DNA from: Lysobacteraceae bacterium
Lineage (GTDB): Bacteria > Pseudomonadota > Gammaproteobacteria > Steroidobacterales > Steroidobacteraceae
Assembly (NCBI GenBank): GCA_012516015.1
Contig: JAAYXG010000301.1
Span: 1 to 13,033 of the forward strand
Direction: 5' to 3'
Length of the DNA stretch: 13,033 bases
Below are positions 1,430 to 13,033 of the stretch, one piece after another (the first letter of the stretch is position 1; the number at the start of each line of letters is the position of its first letter). The position numbers were made by a program, and so were the translations under genes. Under the pieces are notes generated by a model. That model was not told the DNA's origin. It was given only the letters and a program-made list of their open reading frames with translations, and searched no databases.

Positions 1430-1562
1430 AGCGGTCTCAGCGGTCGGTGGTCAGCGGTTCGTTCGGATGCGCTTGCGCGCCACACCCGCTGCTTTCTCCC
1501 GCCGACGCTTCCCAGATCGATCGCATCGTGCTTCCTCTAACCTCTAACCGCTAACCGCCTAT
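1430..1562. repeat. Heptamer inverted-repeat element A (parE/parC gap)
   Basis: The left arm (1431-1460) is made of 7-base units GCGGTCT, GCGGTCG, GTGGTCA and GCGGTTC, with a 2-base slip after the first. The right arm (1535-1562) reads CTCTAAC, CTCTAAC, CGCTAAC, CGCC; on the other strand this is GCGGTTA, GCGGTTA, GAGGTTA, so the arms share the GCGGT core. The interior is about 74 bases. This is the most degenerate of the five elements and a full-length stem is not certain. It fills nearly the whole gap, starting 5 bases after the parE stop and ending 6 bases before the parC ATG. Function unknown. Confidence 0.55.
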
Positions 1563-1568
1563 AGAGCA

Positions 1569-3818
1569 ATGCCTAGCCAACCCCCACTCAACTTCGAAGG
1601 CATCGAGCGTCTTCCTCTCAGAAATTTCACGGAGAAGGCGTACCTCGATTATTCGATGTATGTGATCCTGGATCGCGCGCTGCCGCACATCGGCGACGGC
1701 TTGAAGCCCGTGCAGCGGCGCATCGTGTACGCGATGAGCGAGCTCGGGCTTTCGGCCACGTCCAAGCACAAGAAGTCAGCGCGCACGATCGGCGATGTCA
1801 TCGGCAAGTTCCATCCGCACGGCGATTCGGCGTGCTACGAAGCAATGGTGCTGATGGCGCAGCCGTACTCGTATCGCTATCCGCTCGTTGACGGGCAGGG
1901 CAACTTCGGCTCTCCCGACGACCCGAAGTCGTTCGCGGCAATGCGCTACACCGAATCGCGGCTCACTCGATACGCATCGCTGTTGCTGCAGGAGCTTGGG
2001 CAAGGCACGGTCGAGTGGACGCCGAATTTCGACGGCACGCTCGAAGAACCCGTGATTCTGCCCGCGCGCGTGCCGAACGTGCTGCTCAACGGCGCAACCG
2101 GGATCGCGGTCGGCATGGCGACCGACATCCCGCCCCACAATCTTCGCGAAGTGGCGACGGCGTGCGTACGCCTGCTCGAGGATCCGAACGTCACCTTGCG
2201 TGAGCTTCTCAAACACATTCAAGGGCCCGACTTCCCGACGGGCGGCGAGATCATCACGCCGCGCAGCGAAATCCGTCAGATGTACGAGAGCGGCAACGGG
2301 TCCATTCGTGCGCGCGCCGTCTACGAAGTGGAGGACGGCGAGATCGTCATCACCCAGCTCCCGTATCAAGTGTCGGGCAGCCGCATCCAAGAGCAGGTCG
2401 CCGCACAGATGCAGGCGAAGAAGCTGCCGATGGTCGAAGACATTCGCGACGAATCGGATCACGAGCACCCGACGCGAATCGTCATCGTGCCGCGCTCGAA
2501 CCGCGTCGACATCGAGCAGCTCATGGCGCATCTGTTCGCGACGACGGATCTCGAGCGCACCTATCGAGTGAACTTGAACATCATCGGCCTCGACGGGCGC
2601 CCGAAGGTCATGGGCCTCAAGTCGCTGCTCGAGGAATGGCTCACGTTCCGCATCGACACCGTCACGAAGCGGCTCAATTGGCGCTTGGGAAAGGTGCGGG
2701 CGCGCTTGCACATCCTCGAGGGCTTGTTGATCGCATACCTCAATCTCGACGAGGTCATCAGGATCATCCGTCGCGAGGATGAGCCGAAACCGGTCCTGAT
2801 GAAGCGCTTCAAGATCACGGAGGCGCAGGCGGAGGCGATCCTGGAGACGAAGCTGCGTCACTTGGCCAAGCTCGAGGAGATGAAGATCCGCGGCGAGCAG
2901 AAGGAGCTCGCCGCCGAGCGCGACGAGCTCGAGAAGATCCTGAAGAGCAAGGCGCGCCTGAAGAAGCTCGTTCGCGACGAGCTGATCGCCGATGCGGATC
3001 TGTTCGGCGACGATCGTCGCAGCCGCATCATCGAGCGCGCCGCCGCGCAGGCGATCGATGAGACCGAGCTCGTCGCGAGCGAGCCCGTCACCGTCGTCTT
3101 GTCCGAGCGCGGTTGGGTGCGCGCCGCGAAGGGGCATGACCTCGATCCGCGTGCGCTTTCCTACAAGACGGGCGATTCGTTCCGGGCGGCGGCACGCGGG
3201 CGCAGCACGCAGCAGGCGGTTTTCCTCGATAGCACGGGTCGAGCGTACAGCTTGCTCGCGCATACGCTGCCCTCCGCGCGCGGCCAAGGCGAGCCGCTCT
3301 CGGGGCGCATCGATCCGCCCGACGGAGCGACTTTCGCGGGCGTGCTGATCGGCGAGCCCCAAGACCGATGGGTCGTCGCCTCCGATGCCGGATACGGCTT
3401 CGTCGTGAGGCTCGAGGAAATGTACGCGCGCAACCGCGCGGGCAAAGCCGTCCTCAAAGTGCCCGAAGGCTCGGGTGTCCTAACGCCCGCGCCGGTGCCG
3501 TCGAGCGATGAGGCGCTGCTCTGTGCCGTAAGCTCCGACGGAAAGCTGCTCGCATTTCCGGTGAAAGACCTGCCCGAGCTGTCGCGCGGTAAGGGCAACA
3601 AGATCTTCGGTCTGTCGTCGAAGAAGGTTGCCGCGCGCCAAGAGTTTCTCGCTGCGATCGCCGTCGTCGCGCCCGAGCAGAATCTGATCGTGCGCTCGGG
3701 TGAACGGAAGATGACGATCAAATTCGCCGATCTCAAAGACTATCGCGGCGAGCGTGCACAACGCGGCGCAGTGCTTCCTCGCGGCTGGCGGAAGGTGGAT
3801 GGGTTGGAGGTGGAATGA
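1569..3818 (+). CDS. parC: DNA topoisomerase IV subunit A
   Basis: ParC is the DNA-cleaving subunit of topoisomerase IV. At 749 residues it is full length (E. coli about 752). The N-terminal breakage-reunion domain has [11 protein letters not shown] (42-52), the helix [12 protein letters not shown] (82-93), and AAMRYTE with the catalytic Tyr127 that links to DNA. Residues 437-475 form a charged, coiled-coil-like stretch, and from about 507 the C-terminal beta-pinwheel begins ([11 protein letters not shown] and later blades). Ser87 and Glu91, corresponding to E. coli Ser80 and Glu84, are the unmutated residues of the quinolone-resistance region. The start is the only in-frame choice: a TAA lies 24 bases upstream at 1545-1547. 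The ATG has no convincing Shine-Dalgarno sequence (only AGAG two bases before it), because repeat element A runs almost up to it. It is probably co-transcribed with parE, 143 bases upstream. Confidence 0.97.
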
Positions 3819-3824
3819 CGATGA

Positions 3825-3930
3825 GTTGACGGTTGACAGTTGACCGTTGACGGCAAGAAGGGAAGGGCGCGCCGGTCGAGTAGCTGCTGACTTCCTCTGG
3901 CTGTCAACCGTCAACTGTCGACCGTCAACC
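3825..3930. repeat. Heptamer inverted-repeat element B (parC/fimX convergent gap)
   Basis: The left arm is four exact consecutive heptamers at 3825-3852: GTTGACG, GTTGACA, GTTGACC, GTTGACG. The right arm at 3902-3929 is TGTCAAC, CGTCAAC, TGTCGAC, CGTCAAC. Pairing 3825 with 3929 inward gives 28 positions: 25 Watson-Crick pairs, 2 G-T wobbles and 1 mismatch, around a 49-base interior that can pair further (GGAAG with CTTCC). It starts 6 bases after the parC stop and ends 15 bases from the fimX stop, so a stem could form in either transcript. There is no T-run, so it is not a classical intrinsic terminator. Confidence 0.9.
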
Positions 3931-3944
3931 GGGCGTTAGCCCAG

Positions 3945-5999
3945 CTAGCCCATCACCACCTGCTCAGGCTCATTCACGAAGTAGCCCTGAATGAACTCGA
4001 TGCCGAGCTGCCATAGAACCGCCATCGTGTTGGCGTCTTCCACGCGCTCGGCGATCGTCGCAACCTTCTTCCCTTTGGCGTGATCGACGAGCTCGCGCAC
4101 GCGCTGCTGCAGGCTCTGGTCGACCGCGAGGCCTTGCATCAGCGTGCCGTCCACCTTGATGTAGTCGAGCGGCAAGTGCGAGATGAGCCGCGCGGGATCG
4201 CGGCCCGTGCCGAAATGTTCGAGCGCGAACAGGAAGCCCGCTTTGCGCAGCCCGGAGGCAAGATCCGTCGTATCGGCGAGATATTCGGTCGCGACTTGCT
4301 CGCTGACTTGGAACGCAATGCGCTGCGGGTCTACGCGTGTCGCCTTCAACTGATTCGCCAGCCACTGCAATAGCGACTTGTCGCGCACCGAGTCCTTCGA
4401 GAGGCGCACGAACAGCTGCTTGACGGGACGGCTCGCGCAGAAGGTCATCGACGCGCCGATGATCCAGCGATCGATGTTCTTCATGAGATCGTTGCGCTCT
4501 GCCGCTGCCATGAACTCGGAGGGAAGGAGCTCCTGGCCCGATTCGTCGAGCATGCGCACGAGCACGTCGAACATGCCGCGGTCTTCGCCGAGCAGACTCG
4601 CAATCGGTTGCTGCATGAGGCGAAAACGATTCTCCATGAGCGCGGCCTTGATGTGCCGCACCCAAATCTCGTCGGCCGCAAGCTGGCGCGTGTCTTCGTC
4701 CTGACGATCGATTACGTGGACGCGGCTGCCGCCGCCCTGCTGAGCTGTCCGTCGCGCCGTGATCGCATCGTTGAGCGAAGCGGCGATATCCGGCGAGCGC
4801 GGATCGATCGCGCCCACCCCGATACTGCACGTGCAGGAGATCTGTTTGTCTCCGATGCGGAAAACCTGCGCGCCGACTTTGCGGATGAGGTTCTTGGCCC
4901 AAATTTCGATGTCGCGCGGCGTGCCGCGTTCCATGAGCAGCACGAACGCCCCGTCGCCGAAGCGTCCGAAAAGATCGGATGGTTGGCGGGTCTCGTCGAT
5001 CAAACCGGCGAACTGACCGACGAATTCTTCGACGCCGAGCGGACCGATGTCATCGAAGATCGCGGGCAGCTTATCGGGTTCGACGGAGACGAGTTGCCTG
5101 ATGCCGGCTTTGATCGGTTGCGCCAGCGACTGTTTGAGCCGTTCGAGAAAGAACTTGCGCTGCAGCGTGCCTGTGGCGGCATCGCGCTCGAGCGCCTCGT
5201 TCAAGTTCTGATCGAGCGTATTCGTGCTGGTGCTGCGACTCGCCGCCACGCAAAGGCGGACTGCCGGTTCGCCGTCGAACTCCGTTTTCGAAAGCTCGAT
5301 ATCGAGGGGCACGCTCGACCCGTCGCTCAGGAGCGCCGCGGCTCGCAGCGAGTGATCGGACCATTTGCCCTGCATGCACGCCACGAGGGCGCCTTTGATC
5401 GCGGCATGCGCTTCCGGATCGAAAGAATCCATGAGCGGCGTGCCGACGAGCGCATCGGCGCTCGGCAAGCCGTAAAGGTCCAGCCACGCCGGATTGGCGT
5501 CCACGACGATCCCTTCCTGGACGTGTGCGATCGCATCAGCCGAGCCCGCCATGAACGATTTGAGCTGTTCGCGATATTCGCGAGCGGCGTTGATGGTCGC
5601 ATTGAGGGTGCGAGCTTGCCGATGCGAATCCAACTCCCGTTCCACGACCGCTCGCAGTCGAACCGGGTTCTTGAGCGTCACGACATCGCGCGCGCCTTGT
5701 TGCATGGCATTCGCAATGATCTCCTCATCCACCTGCTCGCGCGCGATCAGGACCGGAACGTCCGCGCCGAACTGCGTGCACACGCTCATGACCTTCGAGG
5801 TATCGGCGGGATCCGGCCCCACGAACGCGATCAGCATGTGGGCGTTGATCTGCTGGAGCGCGTCGCCCAGATCATTGAGCTCGCGGATCCAGTTGCAGCG
5901 CACTGCATGGCCGGCGTTGCGCAACGTGCTGTTGATGGCTTCGACGTTGTCCTGATGGCGGGTCAGGACGATCATCGGCACCGCGCTCTGTTCGGCCAA
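3945..5999 (-). CDS. fimX: FimX-like REC-PAS-GGDEF-EAL protein, probably a c-di-GMP receptor
   Basis: This 684-residue cytoplasmic protein has the order and length of FimX (about 690), a c-di-GMP effector for type IV pilus assembly and twitching. Domains by eye: degenerate receiver about 8-125, without the usual phospho-acceptor Asp; PAS about 140-255; GGDEF-like about 270-430; EAL-like about 440-680. The GGDEF site reads GDGAF (348-352). The EAL site reads DVLVRM (478-483), DDFG is replaced by EHFG (594-597), and EGVE by ERVE (651-654), while KVD (615-617) and QGYF (671-674) remain. Synthesis and hydrolysis of c-di-GMP therefore look lost; binding is inferred from the FimX family. The start is a TTG preceded by GGAGAT at 6006-6011 with a 6-base spacer; an internal ATG at 5975 is the alternative. 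It lies 120 bases downstream of epmB on the same strand. Other degenerate GGDEF-EAL families are possible, but parC/psd synteny as remembered from P. aeruginosa supports fimX. Confidence 0.8.
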   Translation of the reverse strand: MAEQSAVPMIVLTRHQDNVEAINSTLRNAGHAVRCNWIRELNDLGDALQQINAHMLIAFVGPDPADTSKVMSVCTQFGADVPVLIAREQVDEEIIANAMQQGARDVVTLKNPVRLRAVVERELDSHRQARTLNATINAAREYREQLKSFMAGSADAIAHVQEGIVVDANPAWLDLYGLPSADALVGTPLMDSFDPEAHAAIKGALVACMQGKWSDHSLRAAALLSDGSSVPLDIELSKTEFDGEPAVRLCVAASRSTSTNTLDQNLNEALERDAATGTLQRKFFLERLKQSLAQPIKAGIRQLVSVEPDKLPAIFDDIGPLGVEEFVGQFAGLIDETRQPSDLFGRFGDGAFVLLMERGTPRDIEIWAKNLIRKVGAQVFRIGDKQISCTCSIGVGAIDPRSPDIAASLNDAITARRTAQQGGGSRVHVIDRQDEDTRQLAADEIWVRHIKAALMENRFRLMQQPIASLLGEDRGMFDVLVRMLDESGQELLPSEFMAAAERNDLMKNIDRWIIGASMTFCASRPVKQLFVRLSKDSVRDKSLLQWLANQLKATRVDPQRIAFQVSEQVATEYLADTTDLASGLRKAGFLFALEHFGTGRDPARLISHLPLDYIKVDGTLMQGLAVDQSLQQRVRELVDHAKGKKVATIAERVEDANTMAVLWQLGIEFIQGYFVNEPEQVVMG

Positions 6000-6005
6000 T
6001 TTTCT

Positions 6006-6011
6006 ATCTCC
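6006..6011 (-). promoter_or_regulatory. Ribosome binding site deciding the TTG start of fimX
   Basis: On the minus strand GGAGAT is followed by AGAAAA and then TTG (codon at 5999-5997). This is the best Shine-Dalgarno match near the gene. The alternative ATG eight codons inside has no comparable purine run at the right distance, so the TTG start is preferred. Confidence 0.65.
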
Positions 6012-6048
6012 GTTGTCGAGTTACGTTCGTTTCTTAAGGGCGCGCTGC

Positions 6049-6054
6049 ATTGTA
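6049..6054 (-). promoter_or_regulatory. Candidate -10 box for fimX
   Basis: The minus strand reads TACAAT, five of six bases of the sigma-70 -10 consensus, about 50 bases upstream of the fimX start in the 120-base epmB/fimX gap. No acceptable -35 box (TTGACA-like) lies 16-18 bases further up, so this is a weak call. If real, fimX can be transcribed apart from epmB. Confidence 0.3.
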
Positions 6055-6119
6055 CCCGAGGACGCGCCGCTCCTTGTCTGGCCTCGGTCTTGCATCCGAC
6101 CCGAAGCCGAAACGGGAGA

Positions 6120-7166
6120 TTAGCCGCGAGGGTCGGTTGCCTCCTGAGCGCGAATCGGCATTTTTGCAGGTGCGCCCGCGACCTCGCGCACCAGCCGCGG
6201 GACCAAGTACCCGGGAAGCCGGCCCGCGAGCGTTTCGTGGAGCTCGACCGCACGCGCTTCCGGTACGTCGAAATGCGCTGCACCCTGAACCTTGTCCAAA
6301 ACGTGCAGGTAGTACGGCAACACGCCGACGGCGAACAACGCCTCGCTGAGCTCCGCAAGGGTGGCCGCCGAATCGTTCACGCCCGCGAGCAGGACCGTCT
6401 GGTTCAACAACGTCGCACCGGCTTCCGCGAGATCGCGGCAGGCGCGAGCGACGTCGATGTCGATCTCGCGGGCGTGATTTGCGTGCAGCACGACCACCCG
6501 TTGTATCGGCAGAGAGCCGAGCCAATTGAGCAGTCCGTGATCGATCCGGCTCGGAAGCACGATCGGGTAACGCGTGTGCAAGCGTAGGCGCCGTACATGC
6601 GTAAGGGAAAGGAGCTGGTCGGTGAACTGTCTCAAGCGGCGATCGCTCAGGCTCAACGGATCGCCACCGCTCAAGATCACTTCGGAAATCGTCGTATCCG
6701 CTCTGATGGCCGCGATCGCTTGCGCCCAGCCGGACTGAAGCGCCGATTCGCTGGCATACGGGAAATGGCGCCTGAAGCAGTAGCGGCAGTGGACGGCGCA
6801 TGCGCCGGTCGCAATGACGAGCGCCCGTCCCTCGTATTTGTGCAGCACGCCTGCTGCCGCGCGGCTCTCCAGGTCCCCGACCGGGTCGCGCGTGAAGCCC
6901 TTCGTAGCGACGCGTTCGGCGAGCACCGGAAGAACTTGCAGAAGCAGCGGGTCGCGGGGGTCGGCTTTGCGCATCTTCGCGGCGAAATTGCGCGGTACCC
7001 GCAACGGGAAGTCGCGGGCGCTTGCGAGCGCCCCGTCGATGAGCGCCGGATCGAGGTCGAGCAGCTCGCAGAGCTCCCTGGGGTCGGTGATCGCGGCGGC
7101 GAGCTCCTGCTGCCACGAAGACGAACGCGACTCGAATTGGCCGGGAAGGGGGGTTGCGGCTATCAT
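6120..7166 (-). CDS. epmB: EF-P (R)-beta-lysine 2,3-aminomutase (radical SAM)
   Basis: EpmB converts (S)-alpha-lysine to (R)-beta-lysine for attachment to EF-P. It is a cytoplasmic 348-residue protein (E. coli about 342) using an iron-sulfur cluster, S-adenosylmethionine and PLP. The radical SAM cysteines are in CAVHCRYCFRRHFPY: Cys123, Cys127, Cys130. LSGGDPL follows around residue 165, and YYLHVLDKVQGAAHF is the usual signature of the family. Lys335 in APAKMPI matches the PLP-binding lysine of E. coli EpmB (Lys332 by my alignment). The ATG start has AAGGG five bases upstream on the minus strand. It is divergent from efp, whose product its reaction serves, and its start overlaps the stop of a possible 25-codon upstream ORF by ATGA. 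The stop is TAA. Confidence 0.95.
   Translation of the reverse strand: MIAATPLPGQFESRSSSWQQELAAAITDPRELCELLDLDPALIDGALASARDFPLRVPRNFAAKMRKADPRDPLLLQVLPVLAERVATKGFTRDPVGDLESRAAAGVLHKYEGRALVIATGACAVHCRYCFRRHFPYASESALQSGWAQAIAAIRADTTISEVILSGGDPLSLSDRRLRQFTDQLLSLTHVRRLRLHTRYPIVLPSRIDHGLLNWLGSLPIQRVVVLHANHAREIDIDVARACRDLAEAGATLLNQTVLLAGVNDSAATLAELSEALFAVGVLPYYLHVLDKVQGAAHFDVPEARAVELHETLAGRLPGYLVPRLVREVAGAPAKMPIRAQEATDPRG
7137..7166 (+). promoter_or_regulatory. Candidate sigma-70 promoter for efp
   Basis: TTGGCC (7137-7142; 4 of 6 matches to the -35 consensus), an 18-base spacer and TATCAT (7161-7166; 5 of 6 matches to the -10 consensus) point toward efp. The site overlaps the epmB start codon, so both genes could not easily be transcribed from here at once. 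It would give efp an untranslated leader of about 170 bases. The rest of the 7167-7342 gap shows no better promoter on either strand. Confidence 0.3.
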
Positions 7167-7240
7167 TTGCGCCCTTTGTCGGCCCCGACGGGCTCGACTT
7201 TGAAGAAATGAACCTCTGATTCAGCCTTGTTCGTCGCCAT
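7163..7240 (-). CDS. Possible 25-residue upstream ORF overlapping the epmB start
   Basis: On the minus strand an ATG at 7240-7238 opens a 25-codon frame that begins MATNKAESEV, is charged and hydrophilic, and ends in DKGRK. Its TGA (7165-7163) overlaps the epmB ATG in the four-base ATGA arrangement of coupled genes. About two thirds of its codons end in G or C, compatible with translation but not proof. No strong Shine-Dalgarno sequence precedes it. I do not recognise the peptide. It could be a small coupled protein, a leader ORF for epmB, or chance in a 5' leader. Confidence 0.35.
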   Translation of the reverse strand: MATNKAESEVHFFKVEPVGADKGRK

Positions 7241-7342
7241 ACGACGACCGCGACCGAACGCGCTGCGGACGCCGCGCACTGAACGCGACGGCCACGAATC
7301 GAGCGGGTTCGCACATTTTCACAGATTGAGCGGCGGTGCCAA

Positions 7343-7912
7343 ATGGCCAGTTATTCGACGAACGAATTCAAGTCCGGTTTGAAGATCATCCTCGAAAACG
7401 ATCCTTACGCGATCGTCGAGAACGAGATGGTCAAGCCGGGCAAGGGACAGGCTTTCAACCACGTCAAAGTGCGCAATCTCAAGACCGGCCGCGTCATCGA
7501 GCGCACGTTCAAGTCGGGCGATACGGTGGAAGCGGCGGACGTCGTTGAGACGGAGATGCAGTACTTGTACACGGATGGCGAGTTTTGGCACTTCATGGTC
7601 CCGGACACGTATGAGCAGTACACCGCGGGCAAAGAGGCGCTCGGGGACGGTGCGATGTGGCTGAAGGACGGCATGATGTGTACGGTGATGCTCTGGAATG
7701 GCGTCCCGCTCACCGTGACTCCGCCCGCTCATGTGGAGCTCAAAATCGTCGAAACCGATCCGGGTTTGCGCGGCGATACCGCGACAGGCGGCGCGAAGCC
7801 GGCGAAGCTGGAAACCGGCGCCGTCGTACGGGTACCGCTGTTCATCAACGAAGGCGAAGTGATCCGAGTGGATACGCGCACGGGCGAGTACATCGCTCGC
7901 GCGAAAGGCTAG
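7343..7912 (+). CDS. efp: Translation elongation factor P
   Basis: EF-P binds beside the P-site tRNA and rescues ribosomes stalled on polyproline stretches. The 189-residue product matches the family (E. coli 188): KOW-like N-terminal domain, middle OB domain (about 65-125) and C-terminal OB domain (about 130-189), ending in the family signature RVDTRTGEY. The tip of the first domain reads KPGKGQAF with Lys34, the residue that EpmA loads with beta-lysine in E. coli; this fits epmB and epmA being nearby. The start is the ATG at 7343 with GGCGG about 8 bases upstream, a weak site for an abundant protein. The gene stands alone on its strand between divergent epmB and convergent msrC. A 9-bp hairpin spans its TAG stop. 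Confidence 0.97.
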
Positions 7913-7922
7913 CGCCTTTCGC
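7901..7922 (+). terminator. Hairpin spanning the efp stop codon
   Basis: GCGAAAGGC (7901-7909) and GCCTTTCGC (7914-7922) form a perfect 9-bp stem with the 4-base loop TAGC; the outer pair C7900-G7923 also fits. The TAG stop starts in the loop. No T-run follows, so it may act in RNA 3'-end protection or termination, or be chance within coding sequence. The hairpin itself is plain; its function is inferred. Confidence 0.45.
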
Positions 7923-7924
7923 GA

Positions 7925-8036
7925 GTGACCGGTGGACAGCGAATGGCGCTAACGCAGTGATCGGTGAACGGCGGACAGCGGACAGTGAAAGGGCCGAAGA
8001 CATCGTTCTTTCACCGTCCGCTGTCCGCCGTTCACT
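7925..8036. repeat. Heptamer inverted-repeat element C (efp/msrC convergent gap)
   Basis: Heptamer units GTGACCG, GTGGACA and GCGAATG (7925-7945) precede a second run GTGAACG, GCGGACA, GCGGACA, GTGAAAG (7964-7991). The second run, with base 7963, pairs with 8008-8036: 27 Watson-Crick pairs, one G-T wobble and one A-C mismatch over 29 positions, around a 16-base loop. This is the best stem in the window. It lies between convergent genes, and its right arm contains the msrC TGA stop (8034-8032 on the minus strand). No T-run is present. The first run has no partner arm and may be the remnant of an older copy. Confidence 0.92.
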
Positions 8037-8514
8037 TCGTTGAAAGCAGAGCTGCGACGACGCGCTCGAGTCCTGCTCGATCCGCGTCATCGAAGCGGCG
8101 GACGACTGGGCTGTCGATATCCAGCACGCCGAGAACGACATCGTCTTTGATCATCGGGACGACGATCTCCGACTCCGATGCGCTATCGCACGCGATGTGA
8201 CCGGGGAATGCCTGGACGTTCGGCACGACGATCGCCTCGCGTTTGCTAGCCGCTGTCCCGCACACGCCTTTCCCCATCGGGATGCGCACGCATGCGGGCA
8301 GCCCTTGAAAGGGACCCACAATGAGCGTGTCGCCCTCGAGTAGATAGAAGCCCGCCCAGTTCACATCGGGAAGCGAGTGGTATAGCAGCGCCGAGATGTT
8401 CGCGAGATTCGCGATCCAATTCGATTCGCCTTCGATCAGCGCGCCAGCCTCGCGCGCGATTTGTTCGTAGAGCGCGGGCTTCGGGAGGCTTCGGTCGATT
8501 GTCAAAGTGTGCAT
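8032..8514 (-). CDS. msrC: Free methionine-(R)-sulfoxide reductase (GAF domain)
   Basis: This 160-residue cytoplasmic protein is a single GAF domain of the fRMsr family (E. coli MsrC/YebR), which reduces free L-methionine-(R)-sulfoxide using cysteines and thioredoxin-type donors. Typical stretches are NWAGFYLL (52-59), GPFQGLPACVRIPMGKGVCG (67-86) and GHIACDSASESEIVVP (105-120). The three active-site cysteines are Cys75, Cys85 and Cys109, with the same 10- and 24-residue spacing as Cys84, Cys94 and Cys118 of the E. coli enzyme. The ATG at 8514 gives the family length and has GGGGG just upstream; a longer reading from 8613 would add 33 residues encoded by repeat element D and is not credible. 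It is downstream of epmA on the same strand across a 124-base gap. Confidence 0.92.
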   Translation of the reverse strand: MHTLTIDRSLPKPALYEQIAREAGALIEGESNWIANLANISALLYHSLPDVNWAGFYLLEGDTLIVGPFQGLPACVRIPMGKGVCGTAASKREAIVVPNVQAFPGHIACDSASESEIVVPMIKDDVVLGVLDIDSPVVRRFDDADRAGLERVVAALLSTK

Positions 8515-8525
8515 GGGTGGACCCC

Positions 8526-8639
8526 CGTCATTCGTGACTCGTAATCCGTGACTCGTAAGAGGCTGGCGGCCAGCCTTCACCGAAGGCGCACGCCGCGGCT
8601 TCTTGCGAATCACTGGTCATTAGTCACGGATCACGAAAT
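8526..8639. repeat. Heptamer inverted-repeat element D (msrC/epmA gap)
   Basis: The left arm is five heptamers, GTCATTC, GTGACTC, GTAATCC, GTGACTC, GTAAGAG (8527-8561), with GTGACTC repeated at a 14-base interval. The right arm (8605-8639) is GCGAATC, ACTGGTC, ATTAGTC, ACGGATC, ACGAAAT. Reversed, it shares TTCGTGA and CGTGA with the left arm but carries one extra unit, so pairing is imperfect. The interior of about 43 bases holds two small perfect hairpins: GGCTGG-CGG-CCAGCC (8561-8575) and CTTC-ACC-GAAG (8575-8585). The element touches the epmA stop codon and ends just before the msrC ribosome binding site. Confidence 0.7.
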
Positions 8640-9595
8640 CAAGCTCGCTCGAACGGAAACGCCAACACCTCGTCGATGTGCTTCGCGCCGGCGGCGCACA
8701 TGACGAGTCGATCGAAACCGAGCGCGACGCCGGAACATTCGGGTAGTCCATGTTCGAGCGCTTGAAGAAGGCGTTCGTCGATCGGGACTGGCGGCAGGCC
8801 GCGCCGCTTGCGCTCGGCTAAGTCACGCTCGAAGCGCGTGCGTTGCTCGCTTGCATCCGCGAGCTCGTGAAAGCCGTTGGCGAGCTCGATGCCGTCGAGA
8901 TACGCCTCGAAACGCGACGCAACGTCCCCGCGGACCGCCGCGAGCGCCGCCTGCGAGGCGGGATAGTCGTAAATGAAAGTGAGTCGCTCGTGACCGAGCG
9001 CCGGGCCGACGAGCGTGCCCATGATCAGATCCAAACAGTCGTCGCGTTCCGCGCGGACTGCCGCGGGCACCTCGATGCCCGCGCTCTCGAGCCGCGCGAT
9101 CAGCACGGGCGTGGGATCCTCGAACGCATCGACGCCCGCGTGCAGTTGAACCGCTTCGCGGTACGAAAGCCGTTCGGCACGATCGAACTGGCGCGCGGGC
9201 GGGAGCATCGCGCTGATGAGCCGCTCCACGTCGGCCATGAGCGAATGATGATCGATCCCGATTCGGTACCACTCGATCATGGTGAACTCGGGGTTGTGCC
9301 AACGGCCGGACTCGCCGTCGCGATACACCTTTGCGATCTGCCAGATATCGCCGCAGCCTGCTGCGATGAGGCGCTTCATGCAGTACTCCGGCGACGTGTG
9401 GAGGAACCGCTGCCTGTTCAGCGCGCGCGCCTCGATGCACGCGAGGTGAACGTCACTGACGGCCGCCGCTACGAGCGCGGGCGTTTCGACTTCGAGCGCG
9501 CGCGTCGCCGTGAAGTATTCGCGCGCCGCTCGCAGCATCCGGGCGCGCAATTCGAGCACGGCGATCGAAGCGGTGGGTTTCCACGAACTGGTCAT
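8639..9595 (-). CDS. epmA: EF-P--(R)-beta-lysine ligase (GenX/PoxA/YjeA)
   Basis: EpmA is a shortened class II lysyl-tRNA synthetase paralogue without the N-terminal anticodon-binding OB fold. It activates (R)-beta-lysine with ATP and transfers it to EF-P Lys34. The 318-residue product (E. coli 325) has TSPEYCMKRL (68-77), class II motif 2 with GRWHNPEFTMIEWYR (97-111), ELANGFHEL (237-245) and motif 3 GVALGFDRLVM (289-299). The ATG at 9595 overlaps the psd stop as ATGA, which suggests translational coupling and gives the family length; the open frame running further upstream lies wholly inside psd and is rejected. It is the last gene of the sco-psd-epmA operon and lies about 0.7 kb from its substrate gene efp. 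Confidence 0.95.
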   Translation of the reverse strand: MTSSWKPTASIAVLELRARMLRAAREYFTATRALEVETPALVAAAVSDVHLACIEARALNRQRFLHTSPEYCMKRLIAAGCGDIWQIAKVYRDGESGRWHNPEFTMIEWYRIGIDHHSLMADVERLISAMLPPARQFDRAERLSYREAVQLHAGVDAFEDPTPVLIARLESAGIEVPAAVRAERDDCLDLIMGTLVGPALGHERLTFIYDYPASQAALAAVRGDVASRFEAYLDGIELANGFHELADASEQRTRFERDLAERKRRGLPPVPIDERLLQALEHGLPECSGVALGFDRLVMCAAGAKHIDEVLAFPFERA

Positions 9596-10506
9596 CGATT
9601 GTCGAGGCGTCCACCGTCGCGGTTTTCGAGGAGTCGGCCGATGGCTCGACCGAGGCGCACTTGCGTCTCGGGTACGAGCGTCGCATCCCACCTGACGCGC
9701 TGCGATTGGAAGAGCATGATGACCGTGGAGCCCATGTTGAAGCGGCCAAGCTCCTCGCCTTTCGCGAACGAGCGGCCGATGCCTTCCTGAATCGAGACGA
9801 TTCTCTTGCCTCTTCGCGGCGGCGGATTCACTTCGCCGCAATGAACGGTTTCGATGCTGCCCACGAAAAGCGCGCCGACGAGGATGACCGCCATGCGCCC
9901 GACGGGCGTGTCGAAGTCGCAGATGAGCCGTTCGTTGCGGGCGAAGACGCGCGGGACGGCGCGCACCGTCGCCGCGTTCACGCTAAACAGATCGCCTGGA
10001 ACGTAGGTGTTGCTGCGAACCGTACCGTCGAACGGCATGTGAATTCGATGGTAATTGTACGGCGCGAGGTAAAGACAAGCGAAACTGCCGCCTCGATACG
10101 TCTCGACCGCTTCACGATCGCCGGCCAAGAGGTCCGCGAGCGAATAGGCGTGTCCCTTCGCTTGGACGAGTGTGTCGTCCTTCAGATGTCCGCATTGGCT
10201 CACCGTGCCGTCGACGGGACTCACGACGAGTTGCGGATCGGCAGCGATCGGGCGCACGCCGGGACGCAGCGCGCGCGTGAAAAATTCGTTGAAGCTCCCG
10301 TAGGCATACGGATCCGGTTGCTCCGCCTCGCTCATGTCGATTCGGTAGCCTGCGAGAAAGGCGCGCAGCAGCGAATTCTTGATCGCCGGAGAGCGAAGCC
10401 GCATCAGTCGGTACACGATCCGCGAAAGAGCGTGTTTGGGCAGCAGATACTGCAGGAACGCGAACAGGCGATCGCCCAGGCGGGCCGCGGGAATTTCTTC
10501 AGCCAT
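9592..10506 (-). CDS. psd: Phosphatidylserine decarboxylase proenzyme
   Basis: Psd makes phosphatidylethanolamine from phosphatidylserine at the inner membrane, using a pyruvoyl group formed when the chain cleaves itself before a serine. The product is 304 residues (E. coli about 322). Visible sites: SPVDG with Asp99, YNYHRIHMP with His153 and His156, and the cleavage motif at Gly259-Ser260. That motif reads MGST where E. coli has LGST; the cleaved Gly-Ser pair is intact. It would give a large beta chain and an alpha chain of about 45 residues. The start chosen is the ATG at 10506, which overlaps the end of the sco gene by 8 bases and precedes a typical N-terminus; an upstream ATG at 10569 lies inside sco. 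It overlaps epmA by 4 bases. Confidence 0.95.
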   Translation of the reverse strand: MAEEIPAARLGDRLFAFLQYLLPKHALSRIVYRLMRLRSPAIKNSLLRAFLAGYRIDMSEAEQPDPYAYGSFNEFFTRALRPGVRPIAADPQLVVSPVDGTVSQCGHLKDDTLVQAKGHAYSLADLLAGDREAVETYRGGSFACLYLAPYNYHRIHMPFDGTVRSNTYVPGDLFSVNAATVRAVPRVFARNERLICDFDTPVGRMAVILVGALFVGSIETVHCGEVNPPPRRGKRIVSIQEGIGRSFAKGEELGRFNMGSTVIMLFQSQRVRWDATLVPETQVRLGRAIGRLLENRDGGRLDNR

Positions 10507-11152
10507 CGTTGCGCGTGTCCGGCGCGCCAACGATGCGTCGGTAGTCGGCCGCAATTGCCGATGGCGCATGTGGCGGCGAGAATAGGGCGCGTAACTCCGC
10601 TTGCGGATTGATCAAGAAGATCGTCGCCGAATGATCGACGGTGTAGCCGCCGTCGCCGGTCTCCGTGATGACGACAGGGACGCCGAGATTGCGTGTGAAC
10701 TCATCGAGCGCCGCCTGTTCGCCGGTGATTCCGGCGAATGAATCGCTGAAATACTTCACGTAGGAGGCAAGTTGCTCGGGTGTGTCGCGCTTGGGATCGA
10801 CCGAAACCAGGATCACGTGCGGACGTTGCTCTGCGGGCAGGTCGCTGAGCGACTGTTCGACCGAGGACAGCATCCGCAACGTCATCGGGCACACGTCGGG
10901 ACAGTTCGTGAAGCCGAAGAAGAGGAAGGTCCACTGATTCGCGAGTCGATCTCGGTCGTAGGGCTTTCCTTCGTGGTCCACGAGTGAAAACGCCGGCAAC
11001 GGGCGCGCTGGTTCCAACAAGGTGCCCGTGCTGAGCGCTGCAGCTCGAGCATCGTCTGCTGGCCGCAATAGGGCGCGCGACAGCAGCATGCCCGCGATGA
11101 CGGCTACAATGGCGAGTGTGATCGCGGCCGCGATCGATGTCTTGCGTTTCAT
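10499..11152 (-). CDS. SCO1/SenC family copper chaperone, membrane anchored
   Basis: Sco proteins deliver copper to the CuA site of cytochrome c oxidase and can act as thiol reductants at the outer face of the membrane. The 217-residue product starts MKRK followed by a hydrophobic segment (about 7-25), a single membrane anchor placing the thioredoxin-like domain in the periplasm. The copper site is complete: Cys84 and Cys88 in FTNCPDVCP and His174 in VDHSATIFL; SVDPKRDTP (117-125) is also typical. Two ATGs stand side by side at 11155 and 11152; the second is preferred because GAGGG lies 5 bases before it but only 2 before the first. The gene heads the sco-psd-epmA operon and is divergent from prmB with only 26 bases between starts. 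No cytochrome oxidase gene is in the window. Confidence 0.93.
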   Translation of the reverse strand: MKRKTSIAAAITLAIVAVIAGMLLSRALLRPADDARAAALSTGTLLEPARPLPAFSLVDHEGKPYDRDRLANQWTFLFFGFTNCPDVCPMTLRMLSSVEQSLSDLPAEQRPHVILVSVDPKRDTPEQLASYVKYFSDSFAGITGEQAALDEFTRNLGVPVVITETGDGGYTVDHSATIFLINPQAELRALFSPPHAPSAIAADYRRIVGAPDTRNDG

Positions 11153-11178
11153 CATGACCCTCGACCCGGAAGTATCGC

Positions 11179-12075
11179 ATGTCGGATAGCTTGCTGCCGC
11201 CCCTGACCGTCAAGCAGCTCATAGAGCGCGGCGCGAAAGCCTTCGAAGACGCGCAGCTTTGGTTTGGTCACGGCAGCGACAACGCGTTCGACGAAGCGGC
11301 CGAGCTCGTGTTCTTCGGCGCCGGGCTTCGCCATGAGGAAGCGCGCGCGGTGTACGACACGGTCTTGGAGCCGGATCGGCAGGCGCGCGTGACCGAGCTG
11401 TTCGAGCGCCGTATCCGGGAACGCGTGCCCGCTGCCTATCTCACTCGGCGGATGTGGTTCGCCGGGCACGAGTTCTACGTCGATGAGCGCGTGCTCGTGC
11501 CGCGCTCGCCGATCGCAGAGCTCGTCGAAGCGCGCTTCGAGCCGTGGATCGATGCCGGGCGCATCCGCAGAGTGCTCGACATCGGAACGGGCTCGGGCTG
11601 CATCGCCATTGCAAGTGCGCTCGCGTTGCCGGAAGCGCGTGTTGATGCTGCGGATATCTCGAGCGACGCGCTCGCAGTAACCGCGATCAATATCGCGCGT
11701 CATCGGGTTCAAGAACGTGTGCGCGCGCTTCGTTCCGATGTGTTCGACGCTTTGCGGGGCGAGCGATACGACGTGATCGTGTCCAATCCGCCCTACGTCG
11801 GCGACGAAGAGCTCGCGAGCTTGCCGCTCGAATATGCTCGCGAGCCCCGCTTGGGGCTGCATGGCGGGAGCGACGGGCTCGAAATCGTGCACCGAATACT
11901 GAGCGGAGCGGCGGCGCATCTGAGCGAGCACGGAATACTGATCGTCGAAGTCGGTAACTCGGAAGAGGCGCTCATCGATGCCTATCCTCGCGCGCCTTTC
12001 ACCTGGCTGGAGTTCGAGCGCGGCGGGGGCGGCGTCTTCTTCCTCACCGCGGCGCAGCTGCGCACGATAGAATGA
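11179..12075 (+). CDS. prmB: Ribosomal protein uL3 glutamine N5-methyltransferase
   Basis: PrmB methylates a glutamine of ribosomal protein uL3 (L3) with S-adenosylmethionine. The 298-residue protein has a helical N-terminal domain (about 1-95) and a Rossmann methyltransferase domain with LDIGTGSG (133-140) and the glutamine-binding catalytic motif NPPY (203-206). The C-terminal WLEFERGGGGVFFLTAAQL closely follows E. coli PrmB and separates it from the release-factor enzyme PrmC; aroC immediately downstream is the usual PrmB neighbour. GGAAG (11168-11172) lies six bases before the ATG. The start is only 26 bases from that of the divergent sco gene, so its promoter probably lies inside sco; a TACAAT at 11105-11110 is a possible -10 but has no good -35. 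Confidence 0.94.
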   Translation: MSDSLLPPLTVKQLIERGAKAFEDAQLWFGHGSDNAFDEAAELVFFGAGLRHEEARAVYDTVLEPDRQARVTELFERRIRERVPAAYLTRRMWFAGHEFYVDERVLVPRSPIAELVEARFEPWIDAGRIRRVLDIGTGSGCIAIASALALPEARVDAADISSDALAVTAINIARHRVQERVRALRSDVFDALRGERYDVIVSNPPYVGDEELASLPLEYAREPRLGLHGGSDGLEIVHRILSGAAAHLSEHGILIVEVGNSEEALIDAYPRAPFTWLEFERGGGGVFFLTAAQLRTIE

Positions 12076-12079
12076 ACGG

Positions 12080-12170
12080 GTTGACGGTTGACAGTTGACA
12101 GTTGACGGCCGGACAAGAGCCGTAGGTCTTCTGACCGTCAACCGTCAACCGTCAACCGTCAACCGTCAAC
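12080..12170. repeat. Heptamer inverted-repeat element E (prmB/aroC gap)
   Basis: The left arm is GTTGACG, GTTGACA, GTTGACA, GTTGACG (12080-12107). The right arm is five identical CGTCAAC units in a row (12136-12170). Pairing 12080 with 12170 inward gives 26 of 28 Watson-Crick pairs with two A-C mismatches, and leaves a 35-base interior containing the fifth right-hand unit. The heptamer is the same as in element B more than 8 kb away. It begins 4 bases after the prmB stop and ends 19 bases before the aroC ATG. No T-run is present. Confidence 0.92.
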
Positions 12171-12189
12171 CTAACGATTGTAGCGCTTC

Positions 12190-13033
12190 ATGTCCGGCAA
12201 CACCTTCGGTGCCTTGTTCACAGTCACGACGTTCGGCGAGAGTCACGGGCCCGCGCTCGGTGCGATCGTCGACGGGTGTCCGCCGGGGCTCGAGCTCTCG
12301 GAAGCCGACCTGCAACCTGATATCGACCGGCGCCGTACCGGCACGTCGCGGCACACGAGCCAACGTAAGGAGCCCGATCGAGTCAAAATCTTATCGGGGG
12401 TATTCGAAGGGCGCACGACGGGTACGCCGATCGGCCTCTTGATCGAGAACGAAGACCAGCGCTCGCGCGACTACGACAAGATCAAAGATCGGTTCCGACC
12501 TGGTCATGCCGACTACACGTATCAACAGAAGTACGGCTTTCGCGATTACCGCGGCGGCGGACGCTCGTCGGCGCGCGAGACCGTCATGCGCGTTGCCGCG
12601 GGTGCGATCGCGCGCAAGTATCTGCGCGAGCGGCTGTCGATCAACATACAGGGCTACCTCGCGCAGCTTGGACCACTCAAGCTGGAGCCGAAATCGCTCG
12701 CGACCGTATACGACAACCCGTTCTTTTCGCCTGACCCTTCGCGGCTCGAAGAGCTCGAGCGCTACATGATCGATCTGCGTCGCGCAGGCGATTCCGTCGG
12801 CGCGCGAGTGAACGTGATTGCGACCGGCGTGCCGCCCGGGCTCGGCGAACCCGTGTTCGATCGACTGGATGCCGACATCGCGCATGCCATGATGAGCATC
12901 AACGCAGTCAAAGGGGTCGAGATCGGTGCCGGGTTTGCCTCGGTCGAGCAGAAGGGCAGCGAGCACCGGGATCAGATTTCCCCTGAAGGCTTTCTCTCGA
13001 ACAATGCGGGCGGCGTGCTCGGCGGCATCTCGA
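12190..13033 (+). CDS. aroC: Chorismate synthase, 5' part (3' end outside window)
   Basis: AroC converts 5-enolpyruvylshikimate 3-phosphate to chorismate, the last shikimate-pathway step, using reduced FMN in the cytoplasm. The frame stays open from the ATG to the window end: 281 codons of a protein usually near 360. The N-terminus matches E. coli AroC closely: MSGNTFG, then TTFGESHG with the active-site His19, RRRTGTSR (48-55), RPGHADYTY with the second conserved His106, and the signature [10 protein letters not shown] (122-131). [19 protein letters not shown] follows near residue 225. No good Shine-Dalgarno sequence precedes the ATG; the leader is repeat element E plus 19 bases. It is probably co-transcribed with prmB. 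Confidence 0.96.

Follow-up and report, generated by a model that had tools for sequence, protein, structure and literature searches.

Intergenic heptad repeats in the window

We analyzed the intergenic regions of contig JAAYXG010000301.1 (C207), whose whole length of 13,033 bases is called the window below and which carries the gene order parE-parC-(GGDEF/EAL-type protein)-epmB-efp-(GAF-type protein)-epmA-psd-(SCO1-like)-prmB-aroC. Five gaps between genes (A to E) hold tandem arrays of 7-nt units, and in four of them the arrays on either side of an interior pair into a strong predicted hairpin. Such intergenic hairpins with tandem-heptad arms, referred to here as heptad elements, form one family, observed to date in some members of a single genus. 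The arrays and arms of the window are located as follows.

1431–1459, forward strand: gap A (parE-parC), left array of degenerate GCGGTYN heptads, weakly paired
1534–1559, reverse strand: gap A, right array of CTAACCN heptads (GCGGTTA/GAGGTTA on the other strand)
3825–3858, forward strand: gap B, left arm, four GTTGACN units with the inner cap GCAAGA at the end
3896–3929, reverse strand: gap B, right arm, cap TCTGGC first and complementary heptads after it
7925–7946, forward strand: gap C, outer direct repeat (17 nt at 88%) that partly copies the left arm
7964–7991, forward strand: gap C, left arm, units GTGAACG, GCGGACA, GCGGACA and GTGAAAG in this order
8008–8035, reverse strand: gap C, right arm, the left-arm units in mirrored order
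8526–8563, forward strand: gap D, left arm of GTGACTC/GTAATCC heptads
8598–8635, reverse strand: gap D, complementary right arm
12079–12113, forward strand: gap E, left arm, four GTTGACN units with the inner end GGCCGGA
12130–12171, reverse strand: gap E, right arm, cap TCTGACC first, then a period-7 array of 5.4 copies (12134–12171)

An earlier note, made from the sequence alone, had placed heptad arrays in these five gaps, and all five were recovered. Its statement that each gap also has paired arms held for B to E, where the RNA folds reached z-scores of −7.3 to −8.0 and 0 of 200 shuffles was as good for any of the four; in A the pairing is weak. The inverted repeat of gap B has arms of 34 nt with 88% complementarity (z −7.72), that of gap C arms of 28 nt with 96% (z −8.00); the outer part of gap C (7925–7963) is a partial extra copy outside the main stem. 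Gap D pairs over 38 nt at 74%, with its best core at 8539–8553/8622–8636 (15 nt, 93%; z −7.31). In gap E, 12079–12113 pairs with 12130–12164 (35 nt, 89%) or, alternatively, 12079–12108 with 12142–12171 (93%), with a z-score of −7.56. Gap A, in the window, is a degenerate array pair and not a strong hairpin: Tandem Repeats Finder reported period 7 with 3.3 copies and 93% matches for its right array (1534–1556), the best mutual complementarity of its arrays is only 14 nt at 86%, and 81/200 shuffles folded as well (z −0.23). The orthologous gap of the congener G012 holds a clear, strong element with a different word. Overall, the window contained four inverted repeats, three of them heptad, while 200 Markov shuffles pooled gave 18 inverted repeats and no heptad one. 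The window had no match to curated Rfam families at the gathering score.

Among the neighbouring genes, parC, epmB, efp, epmA, psd and prmB each scored above the NCBIfam cut-off, and the parE fragment, truncated by the contig end, slightly under it. The putative GGDEF/EAL protein matched families linked to cyclic di-guanosine monophosphate (c-di-GMP), all below the cut-offs; the putative GAF-type and SCO1-like proteins had no NCBIfam match and carry our own labels. The same applies to the gene at the right end of the window, named from the open reading frame (ORF) list and not from NCBIfam, upstream of whose predicted start at 12190 the right arm of gap E sits.

12190–13032: ORF, predicted aroC

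Genome-wide abundance and period

The genome of the window (G000; 3.62 Mb, 844 contigs, 76% complete) was compared with 13 congeners (G001–G012 and G021), giving 14 genomes of the genus. For G000, a systematic sample of 60 contigs was used, comprising 281,624 bases of which 50,783 (~18%) are N; the true density may differ slightly. Inverted repeats were counted at a score of at least 14 with first-order Markov shuffles as controls, pattern counts are written as forward/reverse strand with reversed patterns as controls, and gene calls came from a simple custom codon-usage predictor, checked on the window only, against the ORF list. A larger G000 set, consisting of the 60 contigs, the window and five further contigs, two of which (C53, C445) were chosen for known arrays, served for word reading, unit order, stop-triplet, co-occupancy and partner counts; the main counts were redone on the 60 contigs alone, and C53 and C445 contributed no row to the co-occupancy test.

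The earlier note had proposed a genome-wide scan against shuffled sequence as a check, and the scan bore the family out. In the 60-contig sample, 24/29 inverted repeats had a best period of 7, with a lag-7 identity of at least 0.6 in 22 of these 24. Ten Markov shuffles of the same sample yielded 1–3 inverted repeats each and no heptad one (earlier single shuffles: 0 and 2 inverted repeats), so that this excess of period 7 rules out a chance origin. Tandem arrays in predicted gaps point the same way, with period 7 in 33/36 arrays of the sample, 37/52 in G012, 17/23 in G007 and 7/8 in G004, compared with at most one array of any period in the shuffles (one per genome). For most gap heptad arrays, a complementary partner lies no more than 260 nt away (42/53 in the larger G000 set, 29/37 in G012). 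Heptad elements occupied 22/89 gaps of at least 80 nt in the 60-contig sample and 23/82 in G012. Over the whole G000 genome, the pattern (GTNRACN)4 with at most two mismatches occurred 120/126 times (reversed control 12/12), and GCGGWY triplets 29/30 times (reversed control 1/0). When only the gaps were shuffled, six heptad elements remained in each of five runs; we take these to be elements overlapping predicted ORFs, whose bases stayed unshuffled. A mixture of genomes in the assembly is an unlikely source of the word diversity, as the single 13-kb contig already holds several words.

The earlier note had also asked whether the period is 7 elsewhere. Period 7 is dominant in the sample and in the congeners, but not exclusive: period 8 occurred once in the 60-contig sample, and periods 8 and 9 in G012, G007 and G002. 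These inverted repeats have period-8 arms (e.g. GTGATGAG, GTGACGAA) or period-9 arms (e.g. GTGATGAAA) in the same layout as the heptad elements and are located in L275, L276, L278, L279 and L282 (G012), L250 (G007), L284 (G002) and L033 (G000); the step is thus not always 7. In the parE-parC gap of G009 (L161), TTGAATCA recurs in steps of 8 directly before parC, with no inverted partner visible.

Anatomy of the elements

The structure of the elements was studied on 91 elements from six genomes. Their arms are 14–70 nt long (median 25) and their interiors 6–184 nt (median 59). The consensus words of G000 alone fall into 14 clusters (at most one mismatch, any rotation), seven of which hold at least two elements (GTTGAC, GCGGAC, GTGGGGC, GGCTGTA, GGGGCTA, GTGATTC and GTGTAAC). 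The commonest words are GTTGAC, GCGGTTA, GCGGAC, GTGGGGC, GGCGATA and GGCTGTA, and some words contain G-tracts. The earlier note had defined the family by period and pairing instead of a fixed sequence, a view well supported by the many words per genome, by the self-complementary elements and by the different words at orthologous gaps described below. Its suggestion that all units look like variants of a G-Y-K-R-led heptamer was only partly right, as it does not cover words such as GGGGCTT, GGCTGTA and GTCCGTA; what holds more widely is a polarity, with the G-rich arm being the 5' arm in 84/91 elements, compared with 84/155 other inverted repeats.

Three further features go beyond the earlier note, namely an inner cap, a bias in stop triplets and the change of words between species. 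The cap, YCRGAR or GCAAGA, does not depend on the word: it was present in 75/182 junction windows, compared with 37/598 windows of element-free gaps, and on at least one side of 54/91 elements. In a decayed element of G010, GTCAGAG was still readable by eye where the heptads had eroded. Read inward, a stop triplet occurs in 122/158 arms, and in all three frames in 50 of them, while outward the numbers are 42 and 5; in column-permuted units, a stop triplet was present in 46%.

The interiors showed only five short matches (12–29 nt) between elements, mostly heptads or caps (interiors of at least 25 nt, from 71 elements). Direct repeats abutting the arms were found in 6/89 cases, with a mean of 4.7 and a maximum of 11 after re-pairing, i.e. 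no excess, and lone arms occur. These data bear on the idea of a non-autonomous mobile family, similar to miniature inverted-repeat transposable elements (MITEs) or REPINs, with several word subfamilies copied to gene-end hot spots, so that differing words would be independent arrivals. A cap common to different words agrees with this idea; however, neither an excess of target-site duplications nor the shared interior of a MITE was seen, and a simple transposon fits poorly, because interiors are largely unrelated, target duplications are lacking and lone arms exist.

Among 60 elements flanked by predicted genes on both sides, 53 have at least one of the two genes no more than 20 nt away and 22 have both that close; 13 further elements overlap a predicted ORF and three are at contig edges. 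Stems at gene ends could be ordinary intrinsic terminators that are repetitive by accident. The stems are indeed very stable, and one heptad element of G007, in the gap after efp (L214/L252), carries a terminator-like hairpin plus eight T within its interior. However, runs of five T accompanied only 4/63 co-directional elements in sense and 2/63 in antisense orientation, and neither the 7-nt period nor loops reaching 184 nt would be expected of a terminator. We consider this explanation very improbable.

At the other gene end, right arms sit at the Shine-Dalgarno (SD) position: SD-like tetramers precede 3/43 genes directly downstream of an arm, compared with 209/661 other genes. Together with the published interpretation of similar heptamer arrays in Geobacter and Beggiatoaceae (PMC2700814, PMC4679880, as far as the consulted parts of these papers go), this could point to arrays, operator-like or on the RNA, that are bound by one or several sequence-specific regulators. 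The SD deficit may, however, merely reflect the C-rich arm occupying that place; recognition by a single protein fits poorly because of the many words per genome, the word changes at orthologous gaps, and operators do not need the arm pairing that is maintained here. On balance, regulator-binding arrays appear improbable, although less so than terminators.

Distribution among congeners

The density of heptad elements differs widely within the genus. Per 100 kb, it amounted to 13.4 in G012, 9.5 in G000, 8.2 in G004, 4.0 in G007, 2.5 in G011 and 1.2 in G003, and to 0 in the sampled stretches of G001, G002, G009, G010 and G021. The stretches comprised 20–230 kb each (20–156 kb in the congeners), which makes the zeros weak, and G005, G006 and G008 were outside the density sampling. 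The word mixes are species-specific. In whole genomes, GTTGAC triplets were found in 3/14 (G000 49/64, G012 58/88, G007 9/2) and in none of the 11 other congeners. GCGGWT triplets were most frequent in G007 (177/162), G012 (117/119) and G011 (45/65), with at most 22 on both strands in each other genome. G001, a near relative of G011 (median 96% amino acid identity, 13 genes), had 0/0. Among 117 genomes of the order, GCGGWY triplets reached 29/30 in G000, and 14 others had one to seven matches, the larger counts being single arrays. In 80 ParC loci of other genomes (745 kb, mostly titled gammaproteobacterial), scanned without regard to the word, one of 36 inverted repeats was a heptad element, and it came from Pseudoxanthomonas; the closest named ParC relative among these loci is a Steroidobacteraceae metagenome-assembled genome (75%).

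The very uneven load among close species and the species-specific word mixes are what a mobile family would be expected to leave. Mobilisation by a Y1_Tnp transposase (PF01797), as for repetitive extragenic palindromes (REP)/REPINs with the REP-associated tyrosine transposase (RAYT), was considered and rejected. The domain was found in 6/14 genomes of the genus and does not track the load: it is present in the element-rich G012 and G007, absent from G004, which is element-rich and 91% complete, and from G000, which is 76% complete, and present in the element-poor G002 (five copies) and G009 (two copies).

The same spread of loads, which reach 13.4 per 100 kb and start at 0 in the sampled genomes, would also agree with a mutational by-product, in which heptad slippage and template switching act in tolerant gaps and the outcome has no function for the cell. 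Several congeners do have empty orthologous gaps (see below). Here, the polarity (84/91), the cap, the stop-triplet bias and the closeness to gene ends (53/60 within 20 nt) suggest constraint, but a hot-spot mutation process could yield some of these patterns. We consider a by-product without function unlikely, yet a serious rival.

A possible genomic background was sought in the hairpin nuclease SbcD. Its model (TIGR00619) had 0/14 matches above cut-off in the genus and 1/14 at an E-value of 0.001; in the order, 58/59 genomes had none above cut-off and 13/59 had one at E 0.001. In control genomes, the model matched in 13/14 and above cut-off in only 8/14. SbcD loss as the specific cause was rejected, as the order-wide lack would be a permissive background at most; in such a background without SbcD above cut-off, long hairpins might persist more readily.

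Word change at orthologous gaps

Next, we compared orthologous gaps of the congeners. The parE-parC gap carries GCGGTTA-like units in G000, GGCGATA/GGGGATA in G012, GCGGATR in G007 and GTGAGTC in G004, and is only 7–46 nt long in G005, G006, G001, G003, G011 and G008; in G021, G002, G009 and G010 it is longer, with no element visible by eye. Similarly, the gap after parC holds GTTGAC in G000, GTGTAN in G012 and GGGCTAC in G004. Before aroC, G000 has a full hairpin, while by eye only a C-rich right array, with differing words, was seen in G012, G007, G002 and G010. Among four element-rich genomes, 20 comparisons had at least one heptad array in the gap of both genomes, and the word differed in 16 of them (consensus words read by eye; comparisons not independent of each other). 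In the gap after parC of G008 (L164:1019-1476; 557 nt), we observed two long inverted repeats that are not heptad-based; their arms measure 33 nt and have CCTATNTCCTCCCGGCA in common, possibly another repeat family.

In two of six genome pairs, orthologous gaps with at least one heptad array coincide more often than by chance. For G000 and G012, six gaps were occupied in both, one and two in a single genome and 11 in neither (p 0.0044, window included); for G012 and G007, the counts were 5, 10 and 3, and 50 (p 0.0105).

Several loci provide snapshots of change. In orthologous GCGGTTA elements of G003 and G011, one whole 7-nt unit of the left arm differs, and a C/G exchange occurs at the matching rank in both arms. 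An element of G012 has GCGGTTA in its left arm and GCGGATA/GCGGATG in its right arm, whereas both arms of the G000 orthologue carry GCGGTTA; judging from these sequences, one arm of the G012 element appears to have been rewritten. In the orthologous gap L058/L282, the flanks look alignable by eye and the arms begin at about the same point, with the words GCGGCCG/GTGAACG in one genome and GTGACGR in the other. As the element-rich congeners are ~74–83% identical in protein (medians), interiors cannot be aligned and the word change cannot be dated.

At a prmC-like gene, the gap holds a full element in G011, a decayed one in G010 and short unrelated sequence in G001, G003 and G008. The G001 flanks are 96–97% identical to those of G011, and the native gap sequence has been replaced rather than interrupted, which speaks against simple insertion of a mobile element. 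Considering all the evidence on either side, a mobile family is a serious rival that we hold to be possible, though not probable.

The gene upstream of parC in G003 and G011 (dxs-like; L265:330-400 and L268 at about 7780) terminates within a right array, whose GCGGTTA/GCGGTTG units encode its last residues KRLAVGG and the stop codon. In G010 (L263) and G001 (L322), where heptads are absent, ordinary codons specify KRLAVGG and KRLTAVGG, respectively; the C-terminus differs in the five other congeners for which this end was available. The sequences suggest an ancestral array in this gene end, with the coding remnant outliving the array. The number of synonymous changes in G001 is, however, difficult to reconcile with simple decay, which complicates this view.

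Comparison with known heptamer repeats

The earlier note cautioned that heptameric repeats are known from other bacteria, and rightly so. The nearest published case found is that of the GGGAATC heptamers which Rehm et al. (2015, PMC4692102) described in Xanthomonas. They form 70 and 75 convergent pairs and lie mostly between genes, with 7–8% of the repeats in divergent gaps. As far as the consulted parts of that paper describe them, the two systems are alike in layout: a 7-nt unit, a mostly intergenic location and G-rich arms that face each other, as in the 84 of 91 elements with a G-rich 5' arm. The Xanthomonas repeats, in contrast, follow one word (GGGANTN), chosen for its G-tracts, whereas the heptad elements have many words, most without G-tracts, a common inner cap and different words at orthologous gaps. 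The defining unit GGG(A)NTN was not enriched here: GGGRAT triplets occurred 3/3 times in G000, compared with 7/11 for the reversed control. The Pseudoxanthomonas pair would link both systems by resemblance only.

The TAACTGA repeats of Beggiatoaceae (MacGregor 2015, PMC4679880) are likewise abundant intergenic heptamers, many of them directly upstream of start codons. In the sections consulted, however, they appear as direct repeats of one favoured word (169 direct-repeat sets, one indirect), single-base variants of which rarely repeat, whereas heptad elements are mostly inverted pairs of many words. For Geobacter metallireducens, elements of four or five tandem heptamers were described, one class of which was drawn as strand-switching sites (PMC2700814); in the excerpt available, these are fixed-word families grouped by similarity (GGACCGG; MTYCTGA) and word change is not part of the description, unlike the multi-word elements reported here. 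With REP/REPIN sequences (PMC3116915, PMC2817692, PMC3733652), as characterized in the portions consulted, heptad elements have in common that they are high-copy extragenic palindromes; they differ in their heptad-periodic arms, in the lack of a constant word and in a load that Y1_Tnp does not track.

In the open-access literature, we found no paper on a multi-word family of heptad inverted repeats, although subscription journals could hold one; for the layout, the Xanthomonas pairs are a precedent. Tandem heptamer arrays of more than one word also make up the cyanobacterial short tandemly repeated repetitive (STRR) sequences, which are direct arrays. Three heptanucleotides of Calothrix are mentioned in PMC4692102.

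Interpretation

Constant across the elements is their shape, that is period, pairing, polarity, cap and place. A constant shape is most simply accounted for by intergenic hairpins in which each arm is recopied from the other and along itself. We propose that the elements act as RNA stem-loops between cistrons, and that slippage in 7-nt steps and template switching from arm to arm maintain the period and the complementarity of their arms, a reading to which we assign a probability of roughly 0.38. At the RNA level, the stem would separate neighbouring genes. The inward-read arms would also supply stop codons, in all three frames in about a third of the arms, since a step of 7 shifts the reading frame and TGA or TAG occurs in many of the G-rich words. 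At the DNA level, slippage or unequal exchange along one arm would proceed in 7-nt steps and supply the period, and template switching would act between the two arms; together, both would leave period and pairing intact even as the word drifts or gives way to another. From reconstructed histories of RNA genes, template switching has been put forward as a process by which hairpin stems arise and are repaired (PMC8794818, in the part consulted). The order of unit variants is matched between the two arms of the elements, with a mean score of 17.7 in the best register compared with 13.7 after permuting the units of one arm; the score exceeded its own permutation mean in 47/60 elements (Wilcoxon p 1.5e-9).

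Several observations weigh against this proposal. The test of unit order is biased upward, since the arms had been picked for their pairing, and it seldom reached significance for an individual element (mean rank 0.38). The cap motif and the stop-triplet pattern were first spotted in the same data in which they were later counted, and the words GCGGAC and GGGGCTT are without a stop triplet. A role of the RNA at gene ends predicts a scarcity in divergent gaps, which were occupied in 7/71 cases compared with 60/259 for other gaps when the window and the contigs picked for other reasons are included; without the window and these contigs, the scarcity was not significant (7/63 vs 48/237, p 0.10). 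Co-occupancy of G000 and G012 drops to p 0.035 without the window, and it was not significant in the four other genome pairs (p 0.2–0.78). Several GGCGATA-type copies of G012 have a unit order common across loci, for which local drift alone is no explanation and which fits a mobile family. The contrast between G011 and G001 indicates that gain or loss can be fast, in line with dispersal or loss as well as with drift. Finally, the proposed RNA role is read from sequence and predicted folds.

If hairpins recopied within themselves are the right account, a further and rather tentative step would be that the element is inherited as an architecture and not as a sequence. The site would persist together with its polarity, cap, self-complementarity and period of 7 nt while the word is repeatedly overwritten, and templated copying from arm to arm and from unit to unit would leave congeners with different words in one gap. 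Similarity searches would then largely miss a class that occupies about a quarter of the G000 gaps of at least 80 nt, and a simple word-agnostic rule for annotation, combining lag-7 self-similarity with inverted pairing, is at hand. The elements would also offer a natural system for watching concerted evolution between hairpin arms, as well as a lead on the recurrence of heptamers in distant bacteria.

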